Source of the DNA: Sialis fuliginosa
Taxonomy: Eukaryota > Arthropoda > Insecta > Megaloptera > Sialidae
NCBI GenBank assembly: GCA_961205875.1
Contig: OY540816.1
Coordinates: 16,378,701 to 16,442,700 of the forward strand
Length of the DNA stretch: 64,000 bases
Direction of reading: 5' to 3'
The notes below the pieces were generated by a model. It had not been told where the DNA came from and searched no databases. It saw only the letters and a list, made by a program, of their open reading frames with translations. Shown here in pieces: positions 19,401 to 63,834 of this stretch (positions are counted from its first letter, which is position 1; every line of letters begins with the position of its first letter). Position numbers and translations under genes: made by a program.

Positions 19401-22400
19401 AGGTAATACTTGATAATTTTCAATGCATGTTGAAAATATTTCTTTATTTTTTATAAATACTTTTTTCTTTATTGTGTAAATAGATACATATAAAATAGAA
19501 ATGTCCATTAACAAAAGTGGGTATTTTTATATTATACTGTGTATTATAAAACGATTCCACCTAATACAATTAAAACAAATAGTAATAACGGTTATAAGTT
19601 TATGATTTTCTGGAAAATTTTACGGTCGTAATAGCGCTTATATGATATTTACAGAACATCTATAAAATAAAAAATGCGTTGGTATAATATACAAAACATA
19701 CTTAAGAATAATTTTTACGACACTTTCTGAATCACTTTGAACGACAAACAAGGGAAACAACGTATAATGATTCATTTTCTTTGTTTTCGCCGCTTTTCTT
19801 TAAAAAGTAAGAGTCAATATATGTGTATATATTGTATATATTACACATATTCATTGAAATAGGTCAGATGTGTTTGATTTATGTAAAAGACAAATACATA
19901 TACATACTTTATATGTTTTTTTTACTTATCAAGTAGACATAATGTAATCTAAAATCTAGATCAATTTTTTTAATGAACTTGGACTAAATTTTGTATTATA
20001 TTCAGGACCGGCTTGGTATATAAATGTAGTAATTCGTAATTGAGAATAAAAATTAACATGAAAAGGGAATAAACTATTCATTCAATTTTGAATGTTTTCT
20101 TTGACAAAAAATAGCCTTAATAGGTTTTTTCTGAAACAAACATTATTTTGAAAAGCACGACAAAATTATAAAATTATAAATAGACCATAAGAAAAAAGCA
20201 ATTTTCACATACATATATATATGACAAATTTCCGCATTTTTTTCTACGTTCATTGGTTTTTAAAGATTAAATACATATTTTTTAAATTTTATACTATTGC
20301 AAATAACGTATAGTCTTAAAGTATTGTTGATTTAGTCAATTGGTCAAATAGTATTTTTCTTTTGCATTGGTTTCATTATAAAGGTGTCTCAGAAGTCAAG
20401 ACCCATAGGCAAAGAAAAAAGTCCAAACATTTATTACATAATCTATTTAAAGTGTGCACCATTGTATCTGTAACAAACAAAAAATAAATAGAAATTCGAA
20501 TGGTTCCTGACTTACGGGACAGCCTGTATCTGTGAGAATCGCAGAAAATGAGTGAAAAACACAATATTAAAAATTAAAGATTTGCTTACCGAAGTAGGTT
20601 TTTTGATTGGTCGCACCGGAGGTCTGTTGACGCCGTTGATTTTGTTATAGAGACCACACGCGTTACACAGGTAATGACCGGTACCGTCTCGTCTCCACAG
20701 CGGAGTGATGCTGGCTCCACAGTTCACGCACTCTTTCACGACGTTCATCACGGCTATAAGTAAATAATACACACTATGTAAAAACGCGATATTTGTCTTT
20801 CAGAAATATAAGCGGTTAAGTACATTTAATCAAAAAGAGAATAGATGTTTTATAAATAATGCAAATATAAAATTAACATTTATTTGAAATTTTTTCTTTT
20901 CTAGAATATAAAACCTTTTAAAAATAAATAAAACCGACTTAAAAAACCCTAAAAACACTGAAAATTATATAATAATAATTCAATTTAATAGTTTTTTTAA
21001 ATTTTTTTCTTAAAAACTTTCTTATTGGGTTGGCACCTACTTCAAAAACTGTTAAATTGAATTATTATTATATACTTCTTAGTGTTTTTAGGGTTTTTAT
21101 GAAATCGGTTAATTAATTTGTTTTTAAGCTTTATATTTTTTCCCTTTTAAATGGCGTATTTAAGAAGTCTATTGTCAAACTCTGATAAAAATGTGGAACT
21201 ACCTCGGAGGTATAGGCTTTCAAACACACAAAAATTGTCCAAATCGAGGCATGTTTGTCGGATTTATGCTCGTACATGCAAAAAAATATTTTAAATTTTC
21301 CTCCTTTTTTGAAGTCGGTTAAAAAAAGGATACTTGTCAAGTATTATGATGCCAAAACTGACAAAAAGTGGATTTAATAATTTGAACTAAATAGACTCTC
21401 ATTAATGAATCATGCAATTAGGCAGCGTTCATTAATTACGTAAGATTTTGGGGGAGGGGGGTTTCGTAAAATCTTACAAATCATTACGTCGACGAAGATG
21501 GGGAACCAAATCATTATTTACATACATTTAATTATTTTAAATAAGTTAACAACAGTTTTGGTTGTTGAAATTCCTTTACATATAAAAATTTTAATAGAAA
21601 AAAAATAATTAAAAAATCACTTTTTCCAATAAAACAAACAATCTCATATAAGGATGGTTTGCATATTTTCAATTTGACATTTTAGTTAAGATTTTATCTA
21701 TCTCTGTTGACTATAAATCAAACTTTAGAGTTGAAAAATCTACTAAAGAATTATATATTACTCACCGCCATCTGGATACGATTCCTCAACAACCCAAGCA
21801 CCCGAAGTACCACCATTTGCCGTGTACCCTGAATACATAGCAGTAACATTAGGGTCTCCTCCTTGTATCCCGCTCGAAGCGTTGACAAACGCGTACTCGG
21901 GTGATCCTCCGTTACCTCCGGCGCCGGCGTTAGGTGCTGTGGTCAGTCCGTTAGGCCAGTACTGCGAGTCATTGGCGTGATGGTGCTTGGGCGTCGGGAT
22001 GAACTGTTGACTAGTGTTGTTTGTGCCGTACAGGGTTACTTGCTGCGATCCAGGAGAGCCCGGGTTTTGCGGGTCGAAGTAGTGGTTTTGGTGTCCGGTT
22101 AGACTCCCGTATAAGATATGTTTTGATGGACCTGCAGAAAAATGTTTACTTTAATTATTTAGGAATACTTCGACCTAAAAATGTATATTAGGTATCTATC
22201 AAAAGAAATAGCTAAAGACGCAGATTTTGATGAAAATAAAGACTATTTCTTAACCGGAGCATAAATATTTAAAAATAATAGAGATTGCTAAAAGCGAATG
22301 TTTATCAAACTTAAATGTGTAAAAAATTTTTGCTTTCGTTACGAAATATGATATATTTTTATTTAAAATAAATCCTCGCAGAAGGATTACCCTGTAGTTC

Positions 22401-25214
22401 AATTTTAAGAGGTGCCGCAAGAGGGGGTCCCGTTTCCCTTTTAAATAACATGGAAAAATGATTCTTTAGTACTAAAGTTGGTATTACTGATGAAAAAAAG
22501 ACATTATTTTGTAGAAGATAAAATTCTCTACAGAAGTATCTGCAAAGTCATGTCAACGTATCAAATGTTACAGGCATTCAAAGTGATTTATTTTTTAAAC
22601 TGTACGTCTAAAAGGCTCTATCGTTTCTATAAAAATAAGTTAAATTGTAATTTTGTAGGAAATTTAATTCTCTATAAAAAAAATTCAGAGAGCTTTAGGT
22701 GTAAATGCAATGAGTTAAAACTTATAAGCGTTTTAAATATTTATTTTTTTACGGTATTATAAATAATTTTGTCTCGAGTAAAAGCTAAGCTAACGCTATC
22801 TGCGTGATATTAAATACCATAAATGACAACCCACTGACAGTTCTAATCAATGGTATTGTTTATTTTATATGAATGACGTCGATACATGCGCGTTAAGTAG
22901 AAATTAGTAATTTAAAAGCTGTGGTGACAAGTGTACCTCATAAAATGCATAGCATTAACATTATTATACATTTATTATCACTGATCTGAAATCCCGAGCG
23001 AATTCATAGCGATTTAACACCTCGCAGATTAAAAATCCACTAGACAAAAAACCTATGAGAAGAAAAGAAGTGTTAGCTTAACTTTTGCTTTAGAGTAAGT
23101 TCTTTATAATACCCGATATTAGAGATTGTAAAATGTTTTAAATAAATCAATAAAACTATTTGAGTAATCGATCGAGTGCTTTCGTTTGCAAAATTAGGGT
23201 GACGTTTTTTTTTCAGAATATAAAAAATATTAAAATTTTGTTTTATTTACTACATAATTTTTGAAAGTAAGATTTGCAAAAGTACGTGCTGTATAAGTAC
23301 ACAAACTATATATTTCCTAGAAATTCTAACAATACCTTTGTTTTATTACAATTATTCTTTTATAGTATTATTATTGTTAAGTATTATAAAAATGTGTTTG
23401 TGTACTTATATACATACATATGTATGTACACAATTTAGAATATTTATTTGTTATTTTCAATGCTATTTTTAACAAATTTTTAATGCGTTCTATATATTAT
23501 TATGTACGTAGTTATATTAATATTAGGAATTGTTTTTTAAATTTACATATAACATTATTTTATATTGATTAATTAGAATATAATATTTTAATAGTAGGTA
23601 TTATATTATTCATTATATGGTAGAAAAATCAATAAATAAAATCAATAGCTAATTAAGTCATTATAATTTAAGGAATAGATAATAAATAACCTTGAGCTGT
23701 CTGATTAGATTACGTCATTATTAAAAATAAAAATTTTTTTTTGTAGATGTCATTTAAAATTATGAAAAAAAAATTATATAAAAAAAATCAAAAACATTAT
23801 TTTTCTTCGTACAGAAAAACTGTGTAGAAAAAGATAAAATGTTCACATTTTAAATATCAAAATTAAACACGTGTGCAATGCTTAATAAAAAAAAACTTAT
23901 CTGCCCAAAAGGAAAAGTACAGGGGAGTAAAGAATGAAAAGGAAACAGAATGACTCGTTGATTAACCTTAAAAAATGTATTTTGAGTTAAATTGTAAAAA
24001 GCAAGTTAAAAGCGGTATTAAGTTCCAACAGACATTTTTTTTAAAGAATGGATACGAAAAAAAGGTCTTCACATATTATGCGGACAATTTTTAATTTAAA
24101 TTTACTGAAAAAACAACTTTTCTGAGTTCGCCACTGAATCGCTATTCAGTTAAAAATTGCAATTCTTACTGGAGTATCTCTAATATCATCCAAAGCCTAC
24201 CTGGTAAAGACGACGAAGTTAAAGTTGGATCAGCTTTATACAAAACCGTCGGCGGACTATCATCATTATGTCGAGATGTGGAAGCGCCCCCTCCCGGCGG
24301 ATACAAAGACACATACGTGTTGTATGGCGGTGGTATAGTGTGGAACTGGTGCGTAGCTTCCGTGTATATATTATTGTACGCTTGTTGATTCTGCTGTTGT
24401 TGTTGCTGCTGCAGTGACGTCACCGTCTCCAAGTTGGTGTACTCAGTAGGCTTGGGTTCGACTTCCTCGTATTTGATCGCATTCGATTCGTAGATGGCCA
24501 TGTTCGGATGCTGCTGCACGTGGTTTTGGTTCGACTCGACGATTGAGATCGTGGCAGTTGGAGGAGATGATGCGGTCTGGACGTATTCTTGAGTCTGGTA
24601 TTCGGATGTACCATCGTTTGAAGCGTACGTGGAATTTGTGTGGATTATTCTTTGGCTATATCTGTGAAATTAATTGTGTTTAGAAAATTTACACATTTTA
24701 TCTATTGTCACACTTCGTAATATCTTTATAATATCGGGCATAAATCTAAAATATTAATTTACCTGTCAGTACTAGGTGACGCATAAACTTGATGACCATC
24801 CTGTATCTCTTCTATTCTTGCTACATTTTCATACCGTTCCTGAATTTGTGGCGTCTGGGTATATCTGGTATGATCAATCGGTTCCCTCTGTATCTCGAAT
24901 CTCTCATATTCCGGTGATACTTCTTTATTCTCATTTGAGTAACTATCAGTCACAGTATCTTCCGAACTGGCACCATCTTCGGTAATCTTCTTCGGCGGTT
25001 TATCCCCAACCTGGAGATCTCTTTCAGAATGAAGAGTGTTGTTGTAATCTTCCTCAGTTATCTGACCAGCAGTTGTTATAATTCTTCTTGTAGTAATTAC
25101 ACTTTGTGAGGAAGGCGAGTCGATTGTTTGAGCTACTGGTTGGGTCATATTTGATGGAGACACTGATTGTCTAGTGTTGGGAGATTGGATTTTGTCTGGT
25201 GATCCACCTTCCAT
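10346..25214 (-). CDS. GATAe: GATAe-like GATA transcription factor, complete eight-exon gene
   Basis: Sequence-specific nuclear transcription factor expected to bind WGATAR sites; in insects GATAe maintains endoderm/midgut identity (family knowledge). Joining 25214-24763, 24661-24201, 22131-21766, 20753-20590, 19029-18904, 13880-13757, 11217-11100 and 10460-10346 gives an open frame of 642 codons (641 residues) with GT/AG at every junction and matching phases. Residues 1-426 are low-complexity, Ser/Thr/Gln/Asn/Pro-rich. The N-finger has Cys435, 438, 456, 459; the C-finger has Cys491, 494, 512, 515, followed by the basic tail [19 protein letters not shown] (526-544). A Ser/Thr-rich C-terminus follows. 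The assignment to GATAe rests on N-finger features ([14 protein letters not shown]) and its place next to a serpent-like gene. Pannier is the main alternative. Being a GATA4/5/6-class factor is nearly certain; the orthology is about three in four. Confidence 0.85.
10461..11099 (-). other. Intron 7 of the GATAe-like gene
   Basis: 639 bp, GTAAGA...ccag. AT-rich; nothing else recognised. Confidence 0.85.
11100..11217 (-). CDS. GATAe: GATAe-like exon 7
   Basis: 118 bp, acceptor tttttcag|TG, donor TCAAA|GTAAGA. It completes Met565 with exon 6 and leaves two bases for exon 8, so both junction phases agree. It encodes [20 protein letters not shown] and further residues to NRHIIS. No known domain; the exon is supported by its splice sites and by continuity of frame on both sides. 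Confidence 0.85.
11218..13756 (-). other. Intron 6 of the GATAe-like gene
   Basis: 2.5 kb. It contains the foldback element at 13272-13682, and nothing else that I recognise. Confidence 0.85.
13272..13682. repeat. Foldback element, about 80-bp inverted arms
   Basis: The left arm (gaacagcgcaaaccgagtct, continuing through cgcgtgaatagct) recurs inverted at 13600-13682 with scattered mismatches. It sits about 75 bp inside intron 6 from the exon 6 donor. Confidence 0.75.
13757..13880 (-). CDS. GATAe: GATAe-like exon 6, C-finger basic tail
   Basis: 124 bp, acceptor ttatacag|GTT, donor AATA|GTAAGT. It encodes [20 protein letters not shown] followed by [21 protein letters not shown]. The basic arm after the C-finger contacts the DNA minor groove and holds the nuclear localisation signal in GATA factors. 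Intron 5, separating it from the zinc-binding half of the finger, is 5 kb long. Confidence 0.95.
14129..14580. mobile_element. Pogo/Tc1-type MITE flanked by TA, 452 bp
   Basis: The left end CAGTAATTCCTC and right end GAGGGATTACTG are inverted repeats with one mismatch over 12 bp, directly flanked by TA on both sides (14127-14128, 14581-14582). No transposase frame. Confidence 0.65.
16100..16396. mobile_element. Non-autonomous hAT-like element, 297 bp, with exact 8-bp target duplication
   Basis: The ends CATGGGCGCCG and CGGCGCCCATG are inverted repeats. TATACCTA occurs immediately on both sides (16092-16099 and 16397-16404). The left interior carries a small hairpin (ggggggtgcaagaaggtgc against gcacttgcacccccc). 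Confidence 0.88.
16558..16601. promoter_or_regulatory. Cluster of three GATA-factor binding sites in intron 5
   Basis: GTTATCAGC, GCTGATAAC and GGTGATAAC lie within 44 bp, the first two as a perfect 9-bp dyad six bases apart. All three match WGATAR (TGATAA). Their position inside a GATA gene intron suggests auto- or cross-regulation. This is inference only. Confidence 0.35.
17808..18154. repeat. Tandem repeat, two full and one partial unit
   Basis: Units begin at 17808, 17952 and 18068 with ttcgtct..actat/caccgatc.g and share gcca.tcgacaaagccgatcaagt-like cores. Unit lengths are about 144, 116 and 87 bp. Open frames over this stretch on both strands are by-products of the repeat. Confidence 0.8.
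18904..19029 (-). CDS. GATAe: GATAe-like exon 5, C-terminal GATA zinc finger
   Basis: A 126-bp exon (42 codons, phase 0 at both ends) from acceptor tatgcag|TGT to donor CACGGG|GTAAGC. It encodes [13 protein letters not shown]..., then [19 protein letters not shown], then KLHG, the zinc-coordinating half of the DNA-binding C-finger. Ending right after KLHG is the ancestral animal GATA intron position, as in vertebrate GATA4/5/6. The serpent-like gene in this window lacks an intron here. Confidence 0.97.
19030..20589 (-). other. Intron 4 of the GATAe-like gene, between the two fingers
   Basis: 1.56 kb, GTAAGC...gcag. AT-rich; nothing else recognised. Confidence 0.85.
20590..20753 (-). CDS. GATAe: GATAe-like exon 4, N-terminal GATA zinc finger
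   Basis: 164 bp, acceptor cttatag|CC, donor TTCG|GTAAGC. It contains the complete N-finger: [19 protein letters not shown] followed by [20 protein letters not shown], with CX2CX17CX2C spacing. In the family the N-finger modulates DNA binding and contacts FOG/U-shaped cofactors. The end of the exon (VRPIKKPTS) is the linker towards the C-finger, and the junction falls at the intron position conserved between the two fingers in animal GATA genes. Confidence 0.96.
20754..21765 (-). other. Intron 3 of the GATAe-like gene
   Basis: 1.0 kb. It holds the inverted-repeat element at 20932-21110 and a related end (tgaagtcggtt) near 21310-21320. Confidence 0.85.
20932..21110. repeat. Inverted-repeat element of the 'AACCGACTT' type
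   Basis: The left arm (AACCGACTTAAAAAACCC, then TAAAAACACT and aataataattcaatttaa) recurs inverted at 21043-21110. A further copy of the terminus (GAAGTCGGTTAAAAAAAGG) lies at about 21311-21329, so the full element may extend to there. Confidence 0.65.
21766..22131 (-). CDS. GATAe: GATAe-like exon 3, Gly/Asn/Tyr-rich
   Basis: 366 bp between acceptor ttctgcag|GT and donor GGCG|GTGAGT. It completes a Gly codon split with exon 2 and leaves one base for the Ala codon that opens exon 4. It encodes a Gly/Asn/Ser/Tyr-rich low-complexity stretch ([13 protein letters not shown]... [10 protein letters not shown]... [10 protein letters not shown]) just before the N-finger. Its GC content is clearly above the flanking introns. 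Confidence 0.9.
22132..24200 (-). other. Intron 2 of the GATAe-like gene
   Basis: 2.1 kb, AT-rich. Short open frames (for example 22478-22762 +) have no recognisable similarity. No repeat stood out. Confidence 0.8.
24201..24661 (-). CDS. GATAe: GATAe-like exon 2, Gln/Tyr-rich
   Basis: 461 bp. Acceptor ttcacag|A at 24662-24663, donor CCAG|GTAGGC at 24200. It completes the split Arg codon (AG+A), reads 153 codons and leaves one base. The product is rich in Ser, Thr, Tyr and Gln, with a CAG/CAA-coded glutamine run ([12 protein letters not shown]) and a Pro/Gly stretch (YPPGGGAS), typical of a transactivation region. No fold is recognised. Other-frame open stretches over this exon are shadows. 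Confidence 0.88.
24763..25214 (-). CDS. GATAe: GATAe-like exon 1 (first coding exon)
   Basis: Starts at ATG 25214-25212 ([13 protein letters not shown]...) and runs 150 codons plus two bases of a split Arg codon to donor AG|GTAAAT at 24762. No domain is recognised. The segment is rich in Ser, Thr, Gln and acidic residues, as expected for the disordered N-terminus of a GATA activator. The ATG is the first in frame after an AT-rich 5' leader that contains a possible acceptor near 25264. Confidence 0.88.
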
Positions 25215-25810
25215 TATGTTTTATTTGTATTCGCTTTTGTAGCACCTCTTGTAACAAGTTTTTCTAAATTAGAAAAGTACATATTTATTTATTTTTTATA
25301 AACAAATAGAAATATAATAATATGGAAACGTCGATCAACTACGTAAAGTTAATTTTCAAAATTTTTGACCTCCCTCAATCCTGCAAGGATTCGTAAGTAT
25401 TAAGTGACCCCCCCCCCCTTTCCTTACAGCAGGTAGCATAGTCCAGTTACAACAGTCGAACAAATTTTTTTTATTTTAAAATACCTTAGGTACGTAAAAA
25501 ACTAGAAATTGCCATATATTTTATAACGAATCTATTTGTTATTTCTAACGCTTCCGTTAACGCAGTAATATTCCGAAACGCATCTACGTCATGGACTGAG
25601 GTATAACTGAAACCGTTGAGTCAAGCAGGGTCGGTGTAAGGGGACAGGTTTGCGAACAAACATATAGCGGGTGACGTTGTAGAGGAAACTGGTGTCGTCT
25701 GAGGAAACGGATTATTGTCACAGCAAACATTGCGGCCGATCGCTGCGGACACGCGACACCTCGCACCCGCCGCTCTCGGCGGGGTACATACAACATTACA
25801 AACGAGTATT
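25215..25810 (-). promoter_or_regulatory. 5' UTR and candidate promoter of the GATAe-like gene
   Basis: Upstream of the start codon lies an AT-rich leader with a possible splice acceptor (tttctaatttag, ending near 25264). Further up, about 25590-25800 is strikingly CpG-rich for this window, and it may be a non-coding first exon or core promoter. It contains two initiator-like TCAGT sequences on the minus strand (near 25608 and 25597). A TATAAAA on the minus strand (25525-25519) is an alternative start region. A 70-codon open stretch at 25796-25584 shows no recognisable protein. Which element is used cannot be decided from sequence. Confidence 0.35.
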
Positions 25811-36070: not shown

Positions 36071-36513
36071 CTACGATGAAAGTGACACGACTGTCGGTCT
36101 ATCCATATTATTATGCGGTGAATGTGTATCACCATTCCCTAAAATAACTTTATTATTGTTATTATTTATATTCCCCAACGACACGATATGCGGTGATCCC
36201 AGATCGCTCCGTGGCGACGAAGATTGCTGATGCATGAGTACTGGCGATCTGTTGGTAGGACTGTTTGGTTCCATTTTAGGTGATTGCATTGATGATTGGT
36301 TCACGTCTATGTATGACTGCTCGTAGGTCCTGTATGAGTTCATTGTTGGTGAGTGCGCGGTGTGGTAAGGTGAGGTCATTCTCTGCTGTTGCTGTTGGAC
36401 CTGTTGTTGCTGGTTCTGCTGCACGAGGTGGCTTGATACAGGGGAGTTGTACAGTGATGAGTACGCAGAGGACGTTGTGATGGCGTTGTGATGATGCAGG
36501 TGATTGTAGGTAT
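36071..36513 (-). CDS. srp: Serpent-like last exon, Gln/Asn/Ser-rich C-terminus
   Basis: 443 bp from acceptor aatttcag|AT to the stop codon at 36073-36071. It completes an Asp codon (G+AT) and reads [20 protein letters not shown], then Gln runs ([14 protein letters not shown]), Ser/Pro-rich segments, an Asn run (NINNNNNK) and ends RPTVVSLSS. Low-complexity C-termini of this kind are usual in GATA activators. Other-frame open stretches across 36276-36545 are shadows. Confidence 0.9.
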
Positions 36514-39500
36514 CTGAAATTGTCGTTAGTTTTGTTAGACATCAAAAGTTTTTTGATGATAGCAAAAAATTACGGGGGTCAGTTAAGTTTTACTGTCAAA
36601 TTCGTTTTCAGCGCTCAAAAATACGTAAGAAAAACATAGCCTGATTAAAAGGTACAAGTCATTTTTTGTGGGTTTGTGTATTATTTATTGAAAAATGTCC
36701 TAAAATTAATGGCCACTTTACCATATGCAAATTTAGTTGATATTTAATATTTCTTACCTATTGAATTAGCGTTTTCCATTTTAATCGATGTTGCTCCTCC
36801 GGATAAAGAACTTGACACCAAGTTTCCTGTTCCATTCGGGTTATTGTTTTCTCCTTTGCTACTGCCTTTGGGTTTACGTTTTCTAGTCTGTAAGAATAAA
36901 AATATTGAATAGAAATATTGATAAAAAAAAATTAAAACAAATACATTTTTTATAAAATGTACGATTCTGTAAGAACAGTGTTATGTGCGAGCAACCAAAT
37001 TCAATTAAAGAAAAATAATATACAATTATTAAATATAAAAAAAATTACGTATACCTAATAAAAAATATTTTGAAGTATTTCATTATTCTATTCATTTTTA
37101 ATTACATACATCCATGGCCATATCACAAATGTGTGGTTTGATACAAAAAAATACCCTATCAAATGGAAAAGCCGGAAATATTTTTACGTAAAAAACGTTT
37201 CGTTTTTTTTCATTTTCTGGTTTTCAAATATATTATATTTATGATAGATACATAGATTTAATTTCATAAAGTAATGATGCAAATATATTCATAAAAATTA
37301 ACAGTCTGAGGCCACCAAAAGGAACAAAAGAGAAACAAATTTGTCTAGAAAAGGACATCAGAGTGATAGAAATAAAAAAGAGAACTGACATTTATTAATT
37401 AATATATATATTTTTTTATCATTCAAAAATAATAAAGATCCTCAAAATATATTAATACGTCATTTTAAATAGAATAAACGACCACAGAAAAATGTGCAAG
37501 GAGGAGGGGGTAAAGAATTTGAACAAATAATTAACATAAACTTTTATTTAAATATTCAATTTGGATTTTTATTCGCAAGTAGTGGGTTATAGAATACAGT
37601 ATTGCATCAATTCACTCGATTCCAAAAGGAGACAAATGCTCCGTTTACCCCTCTCTGTGGACGCTCATAAGTGCGGTTGATTTTGGGAGAACAAAAAAAC
37701 TTTTCTCAGAATATTGATAAAGAAATCTTTTCTAATTTGAGTGTACAAAATTCAATATTTAGCTGATGTGAAAAACGTATTTTGAGATTTAGATAGAACA
37801 TGTATAATATGTAGAGATTGGAAAAATAGTTGTTATTTTCAATGAAATAATTACTAGTTGAATTTCATTTCGGAAAATAGTTGGTAAATAGTTTTTTTGC
37901 GATTTAATAATAATTAGTGCAAACGAAGCAGTAAAAAGTATCGCAAATAGTTTGAAAGGTAGTTGCAAATAGTTGATTTAAAATTGTGTTCAATCAAACC
38001 AGTTTTCTGAAAACGGTGGAGATATGTAATAAAAATTACAATAAATGCATTTTTACGCAATAGTTGAAAAACTATTTTTCCAATCTTTAATAATAAGGTA
38101 CATATGAGTATTATTACCTGTATGTTAGGTAAATAGTTTTTTTTACGATTTAATAATAATTAGTGCAAACGAAGCAGTAAAAAGTGTCGCAAATAGTTTA
38201 AAAATAATTTGAAAGGTAGTTGCAAATAGTTGATTTCAAATTGTGTTCAATCAAACCAGTTTTCTGAAAACGGTGGGGATATGTAATAAAAATTACAATA
38301 AAAGCATTTTTACGCAATAGTTGAAAAACTATTTTTCCAATCTTTAATAATAAGGTACATATGAGTAATAATTACCTGTATGTTATCCTTCTTCATGGCG
38401 AGGGGTCGAGTAACTCCGTGAAGCTTGTAGTAGAGCCCACAAGCGTTACAGACGGGCTCGCCGTGAGTATTTCTCCTCCACAAGGAAGTCATGGTAGTGT
38501 GACAGTTAGAGCAGGACAAACCAACACGTCTTGATGCAGACTAAACAGAGATACAAGATATTTAGTAAATTGTTTTCGAAAAATACACTCGCACCTACAG
38601 GCTGTCTAAATTAAATTACATTATTTTTAAAAACTAAAAAATTACAGTTAAACATAATAAAGCAATGTAACAGTCTAGTATTATTAGAATCCTGATGAAC
38701 TTGGAACAATTAATTGTTTTATTATAAATTTTAGTTTTTAATTGTCCATTTTCTGGCATTCATTTTTAGTATAAGGTACTGGCACCAGTCTTGGATCACA
38801 CCCCAATCTTGGATTCGTGTTTAATTAAATATACTAAATTAGAAATATTTGTTCATATTTAAAGAGCTTAATTTGATGACAATCGGCCAATGGGTGTTAA
38901 AATGGTGGATATTTAAACTAGTTATTAGTGTAATAGATTTATTAATTATTATCATAGCGTCTGCTTTACATTGTTTCAAAATTTACGATTCTTGATTTTA
39001 TAACTTTTTTGTCGTAGTACTTATCATTTTGTAATCATTAGCAAGTGTCCATTACTGGGTGTCCTTTACATATAATTTAAAAAAACAAACTATATTTGCG
39101 GACTTTCATAGTTAAATTGATTTAATAAAGAGATGCTTGTTTTATTAGTAATATGAGTTCATGAGAATTACAAAAAAGAAGCCCATCATCCCAAAAAACT
39201 GTATATCTTTCTGTTAAAGGGGCTAAGACTAGTGCCAGTATCTTATGTATATTATGTTCGTTTTAAATTATTAAAAGATCTTATTTAAATAAAGACAGCC
39301 TATAAAAGAGGAGCGAATCAAAAAAATATATATTTTAAATGTACATATATTTAGATTTCTGGGTATAATATGTCATATTGAGTGAAATAAATGTACTTTG
39401 TTTATACCAAGGAATCCAAACATATATAAATCGTGTAAGAAGCGTATAATCATGCATTAGGTGTTTAAGATTCAGTTAGTATAGCTAAAGTAAAGACAAA

Positions 39501-42500
39501 AAGCATTAAGTGACAATGATATATTTTTAATGCAATTTTTATTTTCAATTTTACATTATAATTGTTCTATGCCCGTTTGTAAGCAGTTCATAAAAATATG
39601 TAAATAACTATATATTGCAAATATTTTAACACAGAAATGTATAAAATAAAAATGACCTTAAAATAATAATAACTTTCTTTAAATAATATTATTAAATATT
39701 TAATTATAATTTTTACTGAACAATTATAATCTAGAAAGATGATGAAAAGCTACATGCAGACATGCAAAATGAATATAATTACGTTGAAACAAATACATAT
39801 GTACATAATTACTTAAAATTACATTTTACTTGACTTGACTTTTTGACCCATGTTTAAAAAAATACTATAGGTATTAAAATCAATAATGATTCTTCAGAAG
39901 TTAGTACTTGTTTCAAATTAATTATTACATTAATTACAAAATGTTCATTAGTAAATAAAAATGTTATTCTTACAATTAGTTTCTAATAAACATGCAAGCA
40001 AATAAAATACATACATACAACATAGTAATCTATTTAATATATTAGTGTATGTTTTTGTGAGTTCCATTTTATCCAATGCTTTTTATTTTATGATTATTTT
40101 ACCTCAAATAGCAATCGTGTAAAAGCAGTGAATTCAAAAACTCATTTTAATAATTTATTGGGTATAGTGGAGTGTATTTGCCAAAATCGTAAATAATATT
40201 CAAATTAAATAAATTTCAAACTTGAACTAATCTGTTTTGTGTTGCTTTAAAATATTTAAATAAATTTCACAATTAAAAAGTACATGCCGATTATTTTATT
40301 AAAATTAGAATTAGGCGATTGTTTATTTTCTTTTAACTCAAAATTTTGTATGTCTATTTTATTTTGGTAATTCCTCCCTCTTATTATTATATAAAAATTA
40401 ATTTGATAAAAGCTCAGTGATCCAATTAATTGAATTTTTAATAAAAGTACCAAAGCAACACAAAAACAGAACAGAGCAAGAAAATAAATGGTTTAGTTCT
40501 TATACTATATAAACAATATACAAACTAGAAATATAATTGAAGCTAATACAAAAGCATATGCGCACAGTGTAGAAGAATACGTGAAAATAATAATAATAGT
40601 AATAATAACTGATTTTTTCTAGGAATATAATATATAATTTTGTTTATTTGTAGTTTCTATAAATTAATATGCACAATTTTTAATAACAAAGTATTGTTGT
40701 AAAGTGTCTAATGAATTTGACATTTTTAATAGAAAATATTCAATTAACAACACAAGATTAGTTTATTGTGAAATTGTTGTCTAGATTTTAATTCATGATT
40801 TTTTAAAGGGACAGTTAGAATCTATTTTATAAAAAAAAATATTTTGAAAGTCAAAAATTATTAAAATATAAAATCTTGTATTACATTTATTCTAAAACTC
40901 TCCACTTTTATAAAGAAAATAAATTAAATACGTTCAATCCTCAATAACATTATCTGTAAATGTATACTACATATTTATGTAAAGAAAATGCTACAAGTAT
41001 GAATATCGGTGACGAAATAAATCTAATTTTATACTAATTAATTTTTTGAAGTTACAAAAAAATATTTTCTTGATTGCAGATGATACTTTATTGAATTAAA
41101 TTTTGAAAATACATTTTTGAATATTATTCATCATTATTTCACAAGATTAGATTTTTTTTAGTTGTAAGTTGTAATATTTTATTCTGAAGTAATTTAACAT
41201 TTTCTATAATTGCTACGAAATATCCGCATCAGTTACTCACTACTTTACCAAAAACATTGAACAACGAGCTTTGATTGGTTAATTCATGGAATTTCGGGTG
41301 GAATGTACCAGAAATTTAAAGAATGTCATTTTTTAAGCATTTAAGGAAGTGAGAAAGAAGTAATCAGAAAGAGATATAAACTAGTGTTCTGGCAGAAAAG
41401 TGAACATAAAAGTTCTTTGGTTAGCCTGGTTACTAGTTTCTATCTCTTTCTAGTTACTTCTTTCTCACTTCCTTACACGCTTAAAAAATTACATTCTTTT
41501 AATTTCTGGTACATTCCACCATAAATTCCTTAAATCAACCAATCAAAGCTCGTTGTTCCGTTTTTTGGTCAGACGTGAACGCTTCAAATATTTAAAAACA
41601 TGTTTAAAGTCTAAGGTAATGGTGCCCAAAATTAAACTTAACTTGAGTTACATTTGAGCCACATAGAAACGATCTGTTTGATTTTTTAAATTGAAACGTT
41701 ATCCGAGAACAACATAAATAAGTGATTCATAAAAAGAATAAGTATAATGTTTTTATTTTTTTATTTTGATTTTGAAGTAGCAAAAAGATTAATAAATCAT
41801 ATATACAAGCGTCAGTTTTGCAAAGTTTTACAATAAAGCAATGAACATAAATAATAAACTACAGGATTGAACGATATTTCCCTATTAAAGCCCAAATAGG
41901 AAATAAATTTTACTAGGAAAAACTACCCGATTACTGAATCTTTTTAATTATATAAAAATAACATTTCAGATTCCTCATTTCCAATAAAAAATTCTGCCCA
42001 CGTATCAGAAGAAAGCAAAATTAATATTTCGTAAATATCTCAAAAACAAAAAAACACATTTTTTCGTGTATTATCTCTAATAGTATGAAATATTAGAATA
42101 TCTATATAATAACTTTTTCCGGTCGAATTTATTTATACAAAAAATATGTTAGCTATTTCTTATCTTTATTTTATTAGAAATATAATTTTTTTGTAAAATT
42201 AATGGGTTTTGAGATATTTGGGATTCGTTGAGAAAACCTGAAATATTATTTGTATACAAATAAAAGAAGATTCAGTCATGCGACAGTTATTTCCATAGGT
42301 GGTCAAAACATTGACAAATAGCATGATTGGGGGAGACGGGGGTGGGGTATTTATTACTACGCATATAACTGACAAAAACAAATGCAAAAGAATTACGTGT
42401 ATAAATTTGTATATGTATGTATTTTTATGTATAAAAAACCTACCAATCTTCGACTGGATTTTTCCTCGGTAGATTGTAAGGAGGGGGCTGATGTTCTTGC

Positions 42501-45500
42501 CACCCCATTATACCCATGATAGTAGCTCTTGTAGAAATCACCCGTGACTCCAGGCTCGGCAGCCACTGAAACGCAACAGAGAACTCGTTTAAAACCAGTT
42601 TAGACCAGTTTTTAAACCAGTTTTGGGGGTAGGCTTTCGCGGCCCGATTTTCATTTTACATTCATATGTTTCTACAGGTTTTTTTTAATACAAAACGTTT
42701 TTTGCCTTGGTAATTAAAATTTCATATTTATATTATAATATTAATTCAAAATTTATCCAGATGTATGACAAATTTTTACCGAAAGAAACAAAAAATCACC
42801 ATAAAAATTTAAATTAAAAGCAGTTATGTTTATAAAAGGCAAAATTAACATGTAAGTGAAAAGTAATATTTAAAAAACCCGAAGAAACTAAGAAAGAAAT
42901 GAAAAATTTTAACTGTCGAAAAATCACAATTTTTAGTTCAAAACCTTTAAGATATTTATGATTTGCTTCATTTTTTTATATTTGGCATATTACAGGGCAT
43001 TAATTACATACATATATTGTGAGCAAATCATATAAAAACAAGTAAAAAAGGTTTATTCACCAAATTTGTTATGATTTTTCTGACTGTCAAAATCACGTAT
43101 ACCGAGAATGCCTAAGTTTTTTTTATATTAACAATTATTTACACTACAGTGCGTCTTTCTTGCTCAATATATCTATCTTTATCTCACAAACCATAGTCGA
43201 CTCGATAAGACCAATTTTTCGACGGGAGATTTCTACAAAGCTGTTTTGTGATATTAAAAAAATATGTATTAATATTTTGAAATGTTTGTTTTTGTTAGTT
43301 TTTCAATTATAGTTTTGTTATTTGTTTTGTTAATGTTAAAATATTTTTTGGTTGTTTTAAGGACATATTCAGGTAACATGCTCATATTCTGATTTTTAAA
43401 TTATTAATTACAAAATTAATTTTATAATTTTTACCAAGTCATTTAAAGGAAATATTAATATTCTATTTCTTAATGTTGTTCAACGTTTCGTCGGATATTG
43501 CAATGAACATCTTTAAGACGTTTAGGTACTGAAATCTAAAACGAAACGTTAGTGATAAAATAATTCACTACCAAAAAGTATTAAATATTAATAAAAATAT
43601 ATCATGCGATTTGGATAGGTTTCCATTATTTAATCATAAACCAAAAATATCTAACTAAAACCCAACAAAAACAAACAAAAAACAACAAAAATGAAACAAA
43701 TATGAATAAAATGAATTCTTGTGCGCATGCGTGCACAAGATGGTTGCCGGCGAACAGCTGATCATACCAGTCGACGTGGCTGTTTGACAAGCGGTCGGTT
43801 CATTCCGTTCATTTTGTGGTAGAGTCCGCAAGCGTTGCACAAGTAGTGGCCGGTACCGTCGCGACGCCACAGCGGCGTGGAGATGGCGCCACAGTTGACG
43901 CACTCGCGTCCCTCGGTGAAATATTCAGCTGCATCGACTGTCAGAGTTTAGAGGTTATGTACATGTACACATAAACACTACCTGCATATTTAGTGTGCTC
44001 TGACGAAAATTTGTAAATAAATTAACGTTCCGCCACTAATATCAGCGGCCATGGAACGTTTTGGGAAGGGAGGCATTTTTCATCAGAAAGGTGCAACTTT
44101 ATAAATTAACGAATTATTCAATATTTCATATTGTTAGTATTAAATATAATTATGCTATTTGACAGTATACCAGGGAAGGGGGACTGCTTCTGGTTTTCCC
44201 ACCTGTTCCGCCGCTACTGAATTAAATAATAAACTTTCATAAAATTATAAAAAAATATTCTCATATGCCGGTCTATAGTTTACCTATTATATACGGTATA
44301 CACTACATACATATAATATTATTATATTATTTTGTCTTCATTTAGTTACACTATTTTTTTTCAGTACGTAAAAAAAGATCAATAATCGTAAGTATATATA
44401 ATGTTCCCTATATTGTGTATTTTTTTACATTTGTACATATACTGTGCCGAAAGATTTTAAAATGTAGGTTTATATTAAATACACAATTATTTTATTATAA
44501 TAAGAGTTTATGTATTTTTGTTCATACTAGTAGTAATATAAATTTAAATTTTGTTGGAATTTTTATTTGGTGTGCCGCGAAATAAATCCTCTCCGCCCAG
44601 TGTGTTTTAAAGTAAAACAAAGTTTGACAAACACTGTCGTGGATACATATATCGATATATTTGTTTGTCTCAATTTAAATAGACCATCCGATATTCATAC
44701 AAATGTATACAATAAGTATACATATGTAAAAATAAGTGTTGAAATAAATTAACTAATATATTGCTTATCCATATTATATCATGCACGCTGAAAACTTTCT
44801 GATGTGCTTTTAATTATGTTCTTAATATATAAAAACGTTGGTGCGTATGTATGTGTTCTCACCAAGTCTAAACCACTGGACGTATCGAAACCATATTCAC
44901 ACCATATGTTAGTTTGGTGCTCTATAAGTTTATAGATTTTTAGGTGGCGCTGGAGTCGAGATATTATATGTGATTTTTAAACAAATTATTTTTGGGTAGA
45001 ACAACGTTTGTCGGGTCAGCTCAAACAACAATTACAACCCTCCATACGTGACAGGGGGTGAAATATTAACTCCCGTGCGAATCAGGTAGGGGTCCGCTAG
45101 TATTGATTAAATATTTTGGAAATAATTCAAACAATAATCGATTTGTTTTTGATCAAAATTATCACCAGTTATAGTTAATAAAAAGAACATTTTTTAATAG
45201 AACTAGTGCCAGATTCTACAGTCTATTGGCCCGGGGTCCCTACAGAATAAATTTTTGTAACTAAATATTTTTCAGTGGTGTGATGGCGTAGCAAGAAGAC
45301 TATTATAGACAATTCAGTGTCTCTGGTGTAGTAGTAGAATGCGGGGGTCCCTTTTAGTCATAGTATTCACAAATATAATTAAAATAATTTCTTATCTGTC
45401 ACATCCTATTATGTAGACAGCCCATGCTTGTATCTTCACTAATAATTTTTTTTTATATTTGCGAATATTATGTACAAAAGATCCCCCCCCCACCCCTTCA

Positions 45501-60500: not shown

Positions 60501-63500
60501 ATTACTATAGTTACAGTAAATAAAGGCATCTAATTTATATATATGTATGTAAATTAATAATAATAATTAATGGGGTTTTCCATATTTTATCAACATTACT
60601 CAAGGACATTTATTAAAATTGTTTTAAATGCATTATGTAATATTTCAACTTTTTCTGAAATGATCACATCAATATATCGACAGAAAACTACGACCAAAAA
60701 AAATTATCAATATACACATTATATTAGTAGCATCGTAGTAAATACTATATCATTAAAATTGCAGACAAAAATGCATTCTTTAAAAAAAAATCCGCAATGT
60801 GTGTTTTTTTTCACAGATTACACAAATTGAACTTGAAATAACATTTAAATGCTGATTATAATGAAAATCGCTTCTTTGTTATATGCATTTCATACTGGCT
60901 TAGGTCAGGAGCGATATCACTAATGTCAGCAACTGAAATCTTTTTATTTAAAAAAATGCAATCAAAAACGGTACCGATAACGCTAATGTGTGAGGATTCA
61001 TATATTTTATTCGTTTACGAAATATAACTACTGGCGATGTTATTTAGTCCAGTTGCTATGTGAAATCCTGCCTGTTTATTTTATCTATTGCAATTAGTAA
61101 TGTTTTCATTTTTAGTGCGAATGGTTTTTAATTTTTTTTAGTTTTATTAATTAATTTTTATTATTTTAAATTAACATGTAAAAAAAATATTTTTTTAATG
61201 AAAATTTTTCACCTCATTATTTTTTTTATATTTTGCAAGGGAAACAAAAATAAAATAAATATAAATGTGATAGCTGATTTGAATAAATAAATCTAATAGG
61301 TACTTTGATACTTTGTACGAAATTTTATTAATGAATTTTCAAAAACAATATCTATAAAAATAGAAACTGTATTGTGTAAGTATATTCTTAACTTTTTTTT
61401 TCAATAACATTTAATTAGCTTTCGATATTACTCTTTTTAATGATTTTGTGTATAAATATAATTCAGTTATAATCAAGCACATAATTTTCTAATATCGCCT
61501 ACCCTGATCACCTCAAGAAACATCTCCATCCCTTCAGTAATCCATGTAAGTTGTTTAAGTTTTAGTTTTAGATTTAAATAAATATAAATATACTCTTATT
61601 ATAAATAATGTATTTTTTTTTAAATTTTATCTGTTAGAAAGTTTTCAGCATGAGATTAATTTTTTCAGCATGGTAATAAAAATTGTTATTATTTTTGTAA
61701 TTAATATAAAAAATAATATGTGCTATTATCTAGTATCTTATTAACAGTTAAAAATTAAGATTACAAATTTATCTAATGTAGATATAGTTTCATAAGTATT
61801 CAGGCATTTGTAATTTATAGATTTGTATTATTTTTTAACAATGAAGTTCCTTTATTTTGATACATTTTTTTTTTGCTCCACATCTGATTTCAATTGATAT
61901 ATATTATATTCATCATATAATAACAAAAATCTATTTAAATGTTAAAGACAAAATAATAAAAAAAAAATTGTCTTTATTATGTGGAATAATCATTAAAATT
62001 GGTCAATTAAAATGAAAAAAATCGTATATTAATTAACATATATAATTAAATAAATCATATTAAGAAAGACCTAATCTTGATATATATTACCACAGGGTCA
62101 TCTCTACTGTCGGAAATTATAAAAAGGATAGTATTTTATCCATTTACATATACAGGATGTTCGCCGGAATTGAGTGATCAATGCTAACTTTGTTATTATT
62201 GAAGCTAGAAGTTCGGTTAAATGGGCAAAGTATCAGTATTTTTTCCAGGGTGAATAATGGCGGTCTCAGAAAAAACAATTGAATGTCGAATTTCAGAGAT
62301 ACATATATTATTGAAATATAACATTTTTAAATGGAATAACCTGTATATTATATGATTTTATAGCTGAGAATGTTCTCTTTATAAAACTAGATAGTAGACG
62401 AGTTATAACAAGTATAAAATTAATAGAAAATATCAAAAAATAGTGTACTATACAGATTTAATAAAATTAAACAACTGATAAAAAATTTTTAAACAATCAT
62501 TTTAAGTTTATTCATCCCGGAAAAAAATCAGCCGGTTATTTATAAATTAAATAAAATCATGAATTTGACATGTTAAGGGTGTAGGTCTCGCTAAATACCC
62601 CAATATTTTTCCCGATATTTGCATTATAAAATATTGTAATTCAAGTAAAAAAGAAAGCATTATTCGTAAATTTCCTATCTCAGAATTTTCGAAGATAAAG
62701 TTTGTAGGTTACGCCGCAATGAATCCACTAACGAAGTTTCAGAGGAGTATATTTTATTTCAAAATTTAAAACCGGGACCGAGGACTATAATATTTTGCCC
62801 GTTTAACCGATCTTCTAACTCCAATAATAACAAAGTTAGCAATGATCATTCGATTCTAATAATTTTATTTAACTGTATTTATGTTTATTTTATAACTTGA
62901 TATTATTAGGTTAGAATTTGCATCAAAACGGCATATAAAATCAAAAAATACGAAGTTAAATGTAACAGCTCTCAATTTTTAAAATTGTATTTTGATCCTT
63001 AAACCAGGGCTTCGAACCGTTATTTTTTTCGTTTCGGTTTTCGTTCCGGTTCGAGTATAAAAATATATTTCGGTTCGGTTCCGGTTTTTGTTCCGCAAAA
63101 AATAACGGTTTTTCCGGTTTTCGGTTCAGCTCCAAGTGATTAATTAAAACAAAAAAATTATTTGTATTAAAAAAAAATTTTCTACCATAATTTATAATAT
63201 TTTATGGTGGTACCTACTTGTATGATAGTCCGAACGACAATTGAAGTGGGAAATAAGATCATGTTAACGCGCGTATTTTAACATGTACTGAACCGTAAAA
63301 ACCGATATTTTTATTTCGGTTCTGTTCCGGTTTTCGTTCCGGCAAAAAATAACGGTTTTTCCGGTTTTCGGTTCAGTTCCGGTTCGAATCCCTGCCTTAA
63401 ACCATAAAATACCAACTTAAATCAAGAAATGTATAAAATTCTTATCAACTTACATGCCGATAGCGAAGCAGCCGCGGAATGTGGATGTCTCCTAATGGGT

Positions 63501-63834
63501 CCAATCCCCCCAACGCCGGAACTAGACCCGGACGTCATCGCCGTGTACTGCTGTAACGCCGCAGCGGCTGCAGCTTCCGTGTATCCGGAGTTGGTCCACA
63601 TGTCACCGCCAGCTCCGGTCTGGTGGCCGCCGTAGCTGGTCGACGGGCCCGGTGAGTACGGCGAACCGCGCGATGACGGGTGTGCCCCAGAACCCGCTGT
63701 GGAGAACCCGCCGCCGAACCGTTGTGAGAATGATGGTAGGGTTGTGGTCGAGCCGGCGGATGCGTTAGACGTGCCTTTGACTGAGTTGTAGTCGTCGGTT
63801 GCCGAGCCTAGGCCGAGGTTTGGCGAAATAAGGC
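36071..63834 (-). CDS. srp: Serpent-like GATA transcription factor, 3' part with alternative exons (5' end outside window)
   Basis: GATA4/5/6-class transcription factor; serpent specifies blood cells, fat body and endoderm in insects (family knowledge). Visible exons: 63834-63454, then either 43937-43768 (N-finger) or 42565-42444 (no finger), then 38540-38376 (C-finger), 36887-36758 (basic tail) and 36513-36071 (C-terminus, stop). The finger form gives 428 complete residues from the first visible exon, the other form 412. Serpent is chosen over pannier because the C-finger reads [14 protein letters not shown] with tail [15 protein letters not shown], and because the alternative-exon arrangement is the one described for Drosophila SrpNC/SrpC. 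The start codon and upstream exons lie past 64000. The intron upstream of the alternative exons is 19.5 kb. Confidence 0.85.
36514..36757 (-). other. Last intron of the serpent-like gene
   Basis: 244 bp, GTAAGA...tttcag. Nothing else recognised. Confidence 0.85.
36758..36887 (-). CDS. srp: Serpent-like basic-tail exon
   Basis: 130 bp, acceptor ttcttacag|ACT, donor AATAG|GTAAGA. It reads [20 protein letters not shown], then [20 protein letters not shown], then NSI, and leaves one base. The TRKRKPK cluster is the DNA-contacting and nuclear-localisation arm of the C-finger. Confidence 0.94.
36888..38375 (-). other. Intron between C-finger and basic tail of the serpent-like gene
   Basis: 1.5 kb. 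It contains the tandem duplication that copies the splice donor. Confidence 0.85.
37883..38385. repeat. Tandem duplication reaching into the C-finger exon and copying its splice donor
   Basis: Copy 1, 37883-38127, and copy 2, 38128-38385, are nearly identical apart from an 11-13 bp insertion in copy 2 and point changes. On the minus strand each copy begins with TAACATACAG|GTAAT, that is, the last ten exon bases plus the donor. In copy 2 this is the real exon end; in copy 1 it is a decoy 258 bp downstream. Each copy carries an inverted-repeat-like end (gaaaaactatttttccaatc). Confidence 0.92.
38376..38540 (-). CDS. srp: Serpent-like C-terminal GATA zinc finger exon
   Basis: 165 bp (55 codons, phase 0 at both ends), acceptor ctgtttag|TCT, donor ATACAG|GTAATT. 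It reads [55 protein letters not shown]. Unlike the GATAe-like gene, the zinc-binding part and the start of the basic arm are in one exon, with the intron after DNIQ. The last ten bases and the donor are duplicated in the intron just downstream (see the repeat at 37883-38385). Reading through the donor would add 21 residues and stop. Confidence 0.97.
38771..39246. mobile_element. TIR element, 476 bp, of a dispersed family
   Basis: 38771-38792 and 39225-39246 are inverted repeats with two mismatches in 22 (core TACTGGCAC.AGTCTT). Related sequence recurs inverted at 59340-59560 and at the window end. Confidence 0.82.
41248..41570. repeat. Foldback element with about 135-bp arms
   Basis: The left arm (accaaaaacattgaacaacg to agagatataaactagt, 41248-41386) recurs inverted at 41431-41570 with few mismatches, around a loop of about 45 bp. 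It is the longest hairpin-forming arm pair noticed within the serpent-like introns near the alternative exons. Confidence 0.9.
42444..42565 (-). CDS. srp: Serpent-like alternative exon without finger (C type)
   Basis: 122 bp, acceptor gtttcag|TG, donor AGATTG|GTAGGT. It reads (L)[40 protein letters not shown]. Entry phase (two bases) and exit phase (0) are identical to the N-finger exon, and it also starts near Ala-Ala-Glu and ends Arg-Arg-Leu, so the linker into [10 protein letters not shown] is kept. It has no cysteines. This is the expected counterpart of the Drosophila exon giving single-finger SrpC. It could be missed by gene finders because it is short and lacks a domain. Confidence 0.85.
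42566..43767 (-). other. Intron between the two alternative exons of the serpent-like gene
   Basis: 1.2 kb. Just above the fingerless exon lie three copies of an AAACCAGTTT-like word (about 42590-42625), within the polypyrimidine/branch region on the minus strand. Otherwise AT-rich. Confidence 0.8.
43768..43937 (-). CDS. srp: Serpent-like alternative exon with N-terminal GATA finger (NC type)
   Basis: 170 bp, acceptor ctgacag|TC, donor CGACTG|GTATGA. It reads (F)[56 protein letters not shown]. The N-finger has CX2CX17CX2C spacing. It enters with two bases of a split codon and exits in phase 0, so it joins the C-finger exon as [14 protein letters not shown], the canonical inter-finger linker. 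Its coding sequence is much more GC-rich than its surroundings. It corresponds to the exon giving Drosophila SrpNC. Confidence 0.95.
45830..45975. promoter_or_regulatory. CpG-rich island within the large serpent-like intron
   Basis: About 145 bp of CpG-dense DNA (ccggccgttatcagcgacgt, gcgaccgcgagacgccgcgt) 1.9 kb upstream of the N-finger exon in otherwise AT-rich intron. It contains one GATA site (GTTATCAGC). It could be an internal promoter, an enhancer or an old insertion. The open frame across it shows no protein family. Confidence 0.3.
47649..48308. mobile_element. MITE-like element, about 660 bp
   Basis: The left end ggtgcattttaatttcccca (then ggtcaatatctcg) and right end cgagatattcgcctgggg (then aaattaaaacgtagcacc) form inverted repeats of about 34 bp. 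The interior is AT-rich without open frames. Target duplication not resolved. Confidence 0.7.
48960..49381. repeat. Foldback element with about 190-bp arms
   Basis: The left arm (cgacctcggttatccccc, ctctacattcaacttta, gattgaaaattttaagtttg, gaattcaatatgaatgtatg) recurs inverted in 49200-49381 in the same order with scattered mismatches and short gaps. Confidence 0.82.
49681..49709. repeat. CA microsatellite
   Basis: Mostly (CA)n with one interrupting CG. Open frames over it on both strands are artefacts. Confidence 0.9.
49815..50290 (+). pseudogene. 5'-truncated LINE (non-LTR retrotransposon) 3' fragment
   Basis: 49824-50123 encodes [20 protein letters not shown] ... [11 protein letters not shown] ... 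[19 protein letters not shown], the pattern seen at the end of reverse transcriptases of insect LINEs (conserved NTR-type motif and LYNKLP). The frame ends in TGA. It is followed by an AT-rich 3' region and a short (TTA)n tail at 50269-50287, as in LINE 3' ends. The upstream frame is closed by a stop just before, so only the tail is present. Confidence 0.7.
50326..50632. mobile_element. MITE-like element, 307 bp, with 50-bp terminal inverted repeats
   Basis: The left end CGGTATTATAAAGGAGTTCG through to CACTTTCAAATG recurs inverted at 50581-50632 with a handful of mismatches. The interior is non-coding. The 70-codon frame across it is incidental. The family is shared with 26848-26895. Confidence 0.85.
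51390..51645. repeat. Inverted-repeat pair
   Basis: acagacaaaaagatgcgaaa (then acgttgccaaaacct) near 51400-51434 pairs imperfectly with the sequence at 51596-51640. The outer boundaries are not resolved. Confidence 0.55.
52798..53055. mobile_element. MITE-like element with about 65-bp inverted repeats
   Basis: The left arm (gggttgcataaagtaaaatt, then aatcacagttagttaatcag) recurs inverted at about 52990-53050. It abuts a second, unrelated inverted-repeat element at 53056. Confidence 0.78.
53056..53444. mobile_element. TIR element with about 65-bp inverted repeats
   Basis: The ends ataaaaacaaactt and aagtttgtttttat are exact complements. Further in, aaaaggtaatcgcaagcttt (then cgattca) is repeated inverted. 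The interior has GC-richer sequence, an A-rich run near 53240 and no open frame. Confidence 0.82.
56419..57127. mobile_element. Non-autonomous hAT-like element, 709 bp, with exact 8-bp target duplication
   Basis: TAGGGTTGCCAGAA and TTCTGGCAACCCTA are perfect 14-bp inverted ends. TGTACAGT lies directly on both sides (56411-56418 and 57128-57135). The interior has repeated tgttctctttt/gtcctctttt blocks and no transposase. Confidence 0.93.
59340..59560. repeat. Second, inverted copy of the 38771-39246 family
   Basis: The complement reads gaggtactggtatcagtctt, then ggatatgaccccagtaatgg, gaattagaaatatgtgttga, gcaatcggccaataagtgtc, aaaatggtggacatttaaac, parallel to 38774-38930. Confidence 0.8.
62159..62857. 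mobile_element. MITE-like element, about 700 bp, with about 75-bp inverted repeats
   Basis: The left arm gatcaatgctaactttgtta (then ttattgaagctagaagttcg, gttaaatgggcaaag) recurs inverted at 62795-62857. The interior has no open frame. The target duplication was not identified. Confidence 0.82.
63005..63394. mobile_element. Non-autonomous hAT-like element, 390 bp, with exact 8-bp target duplication, beside a splice donor
   Basis: CCTTAAAC flanks it on both sides (62997-63004 and 63395-63402). The ends CAGGGCTTCGAACCG and CGGTTCGAATCCCTG are inverted repeats with one mismatch. The interior repeats ttccggttttcggttcag and ttcgttccgg words twice. It ends 59 bp from the serpent-like exon at 63454. 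Confidence 0.92.
63454..63834 (-). CDS. srp: Serpent-like exon upstream of the fingers, Ser/Gly/Ala-rich
   Basis: 381 bp, acceptor tattacag|GC, donor GCAT|GTAAGT. It starts with two bases of a codon split with an exon beyond the window and leaves one base (T). It reads [20 protein letters not shown], then Ser/Gly/Thr-rich sequence, an Ala run ([14 protein letters not shown]) and ends ...HSAAASLSA. It is strongly GC- and CpG-rich against its introns. The + strand open frame across 63429-63635 is its antisense shadow. The next exon makes the split codon Phe (finger form) or Leu (fingerless form). Confidence 0.9.

Follow-up and report, generated by a model that had tools for sequence, protein, structure and literature searches.

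The window, a 64,000-nucleotide stretch of Sialis fuliginosa DNA analysed as a whole, carries on its minus strand a GATA factor gene in which two zinc fingers are encoded by separate exons and a short fingerless exon lies between them. We read this locus, with high confidence, as an insect serpent gene containing the known pair of mutually exclusive exons. Serpent is a regulator of blood and fat body. A second GATA gene lies in the same window and on the same strand. The features are:

63454-63834, minus strand: shared upstream coding exon, corresponding to exon 3 (spliced translation)
43768-43937, minus strand: E4A, the 170-nt exon of the N-terminal GATA zinc finger (Pfam GATA PF00320, 2.7e-16)
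42566-43767, minus strand: intron separating E4A from E4B, 1,202 nt
42444-42565, minus strand: E4B, the fingerless alternative exon, 122 nt (splice sites and frame; no Pfam match)
38376-38540, minus strand: shared 165-nt exon of the C-terminal GATA zinc finger, entered and left in phase 0 (PF00320, 1.8e-17)
36758-36887, minus strand: common exon with the basic tail TRKRKPK, 130 nt (spliced translation)
36071-36513, minus strand: last coding exon, with TAG at its end (spliced translation)
about 18905-25220, minus strand: GATAe-like two-finger gene, outer limits guessed from open frames
20656-20730, minus strand: GATAe-like N-finger
18928-19002, minus strand: GATAe-like C-finger

The 5′ end of serpent is taken to lie outside the window, beyond the upstream exon. 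Right after the donor of that exon, the stretch 63280-63395 is rich in GAACCGGAA/AACCGG and by eye resembles a piece of a dispersed repeat. The intron adjoining the C-finger donor holds a 257-nt tandem duplication (37883-38385; 2.0 copies, 92% matches) which, as called, overlaps the last 10 bases of the C-finger exon. Rfam and ARAGORN scans of the whole window gave no matches.

Across the genome there are nine GATA finger matches, which we read as five genes. The srp, GATAe-like and pnr-like genes, with two fingers each, lie on the minus strand of C8 in the order pnr-GATAe-srp within about 104 kb; on C5, 38 kb separates the two fingers of a grain-like gene, and C6 carries a GATAd-like gene with one matched finger. 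We presume these paralogue names from position and likeness and not from a tree. The GATAd-like gene (L014, from position 2812) shows a single finger match; a second finger, if diverged, could have escaped detection. The original prediction named the gene in the window serpent, an identification supported by its finger exons, by the intron that follows the C-finger and by its position in the pnr-GATAe-srp cluster. The gene has two fingers on separate exons, as expected of serpent (GATA456ba), a feature shared with other GATA genes. The intron at 38375-36888 follows the C-finger exon and lies inside the conserved domain. The pnr-like gene has no intron after its C-finger, and its finger and TRKRKPK lie in one open frame. 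According to the part of Gillis et al. 2008 (PMC2383905) available to us, GATAe genes outside Diptera also retain the post-C-finger intron; the same text describes the pnr-GATAe-srp cluster and these gene classes in insects, and GATAd as an insect-specific duplicate.

Prokaryote genome contigs and viral contigs were searched for relatives of E4A that insect contamination might have left there: the former held two loci, both partial and in bacterial records, and the latter none. The odorant receptor family PF02949, a mark of insects, has 42 matches in the genome. A search of the same genome for carotenoid desaturase (TIGR02734), a mark of aphids, returned 11 weak partial matches, none above the cut-off, and so did not point to an aphid. 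At G000 C13:8747243-8782469, seven partial matches follow one another, each to the first part of the phytoene desaturase family; they may represent FAD-binding oxidoreductases arrayed in tandem.

The exon anatomy at the alternative pair is precise. The upstream exon (63834-63454) ends in ...TCG GCA T (donor CAT-gtaagt), one base into a codon, and this split codon is filled as T+TC (Phe) with E4A and as T+TG (Leu) with E4B. E4A has the acceptor ctctgacag-TC, the donor CTG-gtatga and the C-terminal residues QPRRL; E4B has gcgtttcag-TG, TTG-gtaggt and SSRRL. The acceptor of the C-finger exon is ctgtttag-TCT. Coordinates and spliced translations agree with the original prediction that both exons are 2 mod 3 in length, are entered in the same split codon (phase 1), are left in phase 0 and terminate in Arg-Arg-Leu. 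A second CAG occurs 9 nt 3′ of the E4A acceptor, at 43937-43929 (cag-TCGATGCAG-CTG), making possible an in-frame E4A variant that is shorter by three residues.

Neither exon length is divisible by 3; zero or double inclusion is therefore out of frame. The product with E4A only is open for 428 codons, counted from the upstream exon on, to the TAG, and that with E4B only for 412. If both exons are omitted, a TAA arises after 32 nt of the C-finger exon, 130 nt from its 3′ end. Including both produces a TGA 49 nt into it, 113 nt from its 3′ end, and since E4B is open in the shifted frame this stop is met only in the C-finger exon. Both stops were correctly foreseen, and two further exons lie 3′ of the exon that bears them. 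Messages encoding the wrong products would presumably be subject to nonsense-mediated decay.

It had also been claimed that single inclusion alone yields a full protein. For the called splice sites this stands. When one AG or GT was moved by up to 100 nt, however, with bare dinucleotides accepted whatever their strength, in-frame double inclusion was allowed by 8 of 40 single alternative sites (3/12 E4A donors, 2/8 E4B acceptors, 2/11 E4B donors and 1/9 C-exon acceptors); none of the nine alternative C-exon acceptors within 100 nt rescued the frame of double skipping. The frame lock is valid for these splice sites and is not absolute, and splicing via the eight evading sites seems unlikely. 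Because both exons must share length modulo 3 and phases if they are to join the same neighbours, these agreements are not independent evidence, and the one free fact in the frame logic is that the shared remainder is 2 instead of 0. The logic proves little beyond the reality of the exons. It was said to be readable directly from the sequence; it does identify which mRNAs would be productive, but not which transcripts exist, and it reveals neither how the splice choice is made nor how rare joint inclusion is.

The argument depends on E4B being a genuine exon. The segment is short and matched no Pfam family at E values up to 1, both of which fit a stretch that is open, and has splice-like ends, merely by chance. 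Several observations speak against this. When splice sites were scored with approximate weights, E4B was the sole 60-300-nt segment in the 24,913 nt from 63453 to 38541 that was free of stops in the right phase and had both sites scoring at least as high as its own; the same 24,913 nt, scanned at E4B's scores on the opposite strand, held none. These cut-offs are E4B's own, and E4A, with weaker sites, fails them. A second scan used looser cut-offs and all entry phases. It returned E4B alone in the 5,227 nt from E4A to the C-finger exon, with one segment antisense, and one segment of low G+C in the 5,227 nt preceding E4A. The corresponding introns between N-finger and C-finger in the pnr-like gene and in the GATAe-like gene each gave none. 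E4B has a G+C content of 50%, well above the 27.9% of the window; 114 of 24,255 overlapping intronic segments of 122 nt reach or exceed the E4B level. The DNA from 42300 to 43767 (1,468 nt) was found at a single place in the 392-Mb genome, in a search that passes over very common words, and the 40-residue protein of E4B was likewise found at a single place. Other insects have an exon at the same position, as described in the accessible text of PMC8844375, and E4B shares the RRL end. We therefore consider it extremely unlikely that the segment is a chance stretch, and treat E4B, on sequence grounds, as an exon.

How E4B arose is less clear-cut. A published idea, put forward in the portion of PMC8844375 available, is that the fingerless exon is a duplicate of the N-finger exon; E4B would have begun as a copy that then lost its finger. 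In global alignment of the E4A and E4B proteins, 16 of 2000 shuffles of E4B scored as well, and in local alignment 44 of 2000, the match being YH..NG..R..P..K..RRL, after the finger. At the DNA level the two exons align no better than chance (136 of 1000 shuffles as good, not significant), which would suit an intronic origin of E4B, by acquisition of splice sites. The poor conservation of the exon among insects, apart from both ends and four to five early residues (accessible text of PMC8844375), suits that origin as well. Against it stand the weak protein similarity beyond the finger and the RRL end common to both exons. Immediately ahead of a GT, the N-finger frame reads KRRL in the grain-like gene and SKRL in the pnr-like gene, so RRL looks like an old end of the N-finger exon and may be inherited. 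The shared phase does not discriminate between these origins, as it is required either way. On balance the evidence leans weakly towards exon duplication, and an intronic origin seems a lesser possibility, somewhat unlikely.

We propose that splicing from 63454 to 43937 and from 43768 to 38540 would produce SrpNC, with two fingers, and that splicing from 63454 to 42565 and from 42444 to 38540 would produce SrpC, with the C-finger only. Both E4A and E4B would be used. SrpC would be expected to escape the FOG cofactor U-shaped, which acts through the N-finger in Drosophila. The choice of exon would be made by splicing factors, RNA pairing or both, following the Drosophila proposal, and nonsense-mediated decay would be a backstop that removes wrong products.

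Decay could have a larger part if exclusivity is not strict. E4A and E4B would then be real exons that are frequently skipped together or joined, with the stops and decay excluding the results and unproductive splicing adjusting the dose of Serpent. The stops of both wrong products lie more than 100 nt before the 3′ junction of the C-finger exon, and no intron-intron pairing beyond chance was seen in the 1-kb flanks, as such an arrangement would allow. In the published Drosophila model, as given in the available passages of PMC6071210, choice is instead set by RNA pairings, and stops are to be expected whenever the lengths of an exon pair are other than a multiple of 3. We regard enforcement by decay as unlikely and favour a choice made at splicing.

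Pairing was assessed by a gapless helix score for ten segment pairs with 1-kb flanks and 300 shuffles. Nine of the ten were ordinary, equalled by between 29 and 215 of 300 shuffles; for the two intron-intron pairs closest to the published model the counts were 52/300 and 54/300 (1-kb flanks). The other pair joins the middle intron to E4B through two putative arms:

43222-43239, minus strand: intron arm, possible pairing with part of E4B (gapless helix score)
42528-42545, minus strand: E4B arm of the possible helix with 43239-43222 (gapless helix score)

This helix would pair 17 of 18 positions, one as G-U, and was equalled by 1 of 300 shuffles at first and by 2/300 and 22/3000 in repeats. A whole-segment duplex calculation did not single out the middle intron and E4B (23 of 100 shuffles as good), and for E4A with the middle intron the figure was 53 of 100; five other pairs were run without shuffles, and these duplexes were uninformative, so that the gapless helix score was substituted. 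As a control, 25 exon-flank pairs in the window were scored, drawn from srp exons and from GATAe-like fingers and open-frame pieces, the GATAe-like exon limits being putative. For four of them no more than 5 of 300 shuffles did as well, where about 0.4 such pairs would be expected, and therefore the shuffles understate chance. The E4B pair had the lowest z in the control (-3.67), and a different pair reached 1/300. The helix between 43239-43222 and 42545-42528 is suggestive, a lead only. That it loops out the E4B acceptor (676 nt) and shifts the gene to the two-finger form appears very unlikely; if true, it would constitute an intron-to-exon switch, in contrast to the published intron-intron pairs.

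The original prediction held that the pair corresponds to the SrpNC/SrpC pair of Drosophila serpent, and it does match E4A/E4B as defined, in the accessible text, by Moussalem et al. 2022 (PMC8844375). That text gives an alignment of the fingerless exon whose species range from flies to a planthopper (hemipteran), louse, termite, mayfly and springtail. It also reports deletions of most of E4A or of the E4B acceptor region: viability requires SrpC, whilst larval blood and fertility require SrpNC with U-shaped. The word 'frame' is absent from its main text. PMC6071210, in the passages available, presents for serpent exon 4 the bidirectional model of Yue et al. 2016, based on long-range RNA pairings, and the text passages of the review PMC11802352 do not name serpent. 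The kind of exon pair, the gene and a mechanism were already known, and the finding is not new.

Drosophila serpent 4A/4B (SrpNC/SrpC) and its hexapod orthologues are the same gene, with the same exon order of N-finger, fingerless and C-finger, the same two products and a fingerless exon without known motif; the present case differs only in species. The likeness of E4B here to fly E4B is at the level of exon anatomy, by published description. The Yue et al. 2016 model (via the available text of PMC6071210) concerns the same exon cluster, but here no intron-intron pairing in the 1-kb flanks was above chance and the one helix that stands out, itself only suggestive, runs between the middle intron and E4B. 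The locus adds one more insect genome with this exon pair, by which Serpent could use its FOG-binding finger or act in its absence. With these splice sites a full protein would come only from single inclusion, which makes it an added example and not a principle. The exclusive exons IIIb and IIIc of FGFR2 also give early stops in wrong combinations, which are subject to nonsense-mediated decay. Wrong combinations here would likewise bear early stops, but the gene is another one and decay is putative. Alpha-tropomyosin also has an exclusive exon pair, of 126 nt in the available text of PMC6572816; that length is a multiple of 3 and provides no frame exclusion, whereas the serpent pair described here can exclude.
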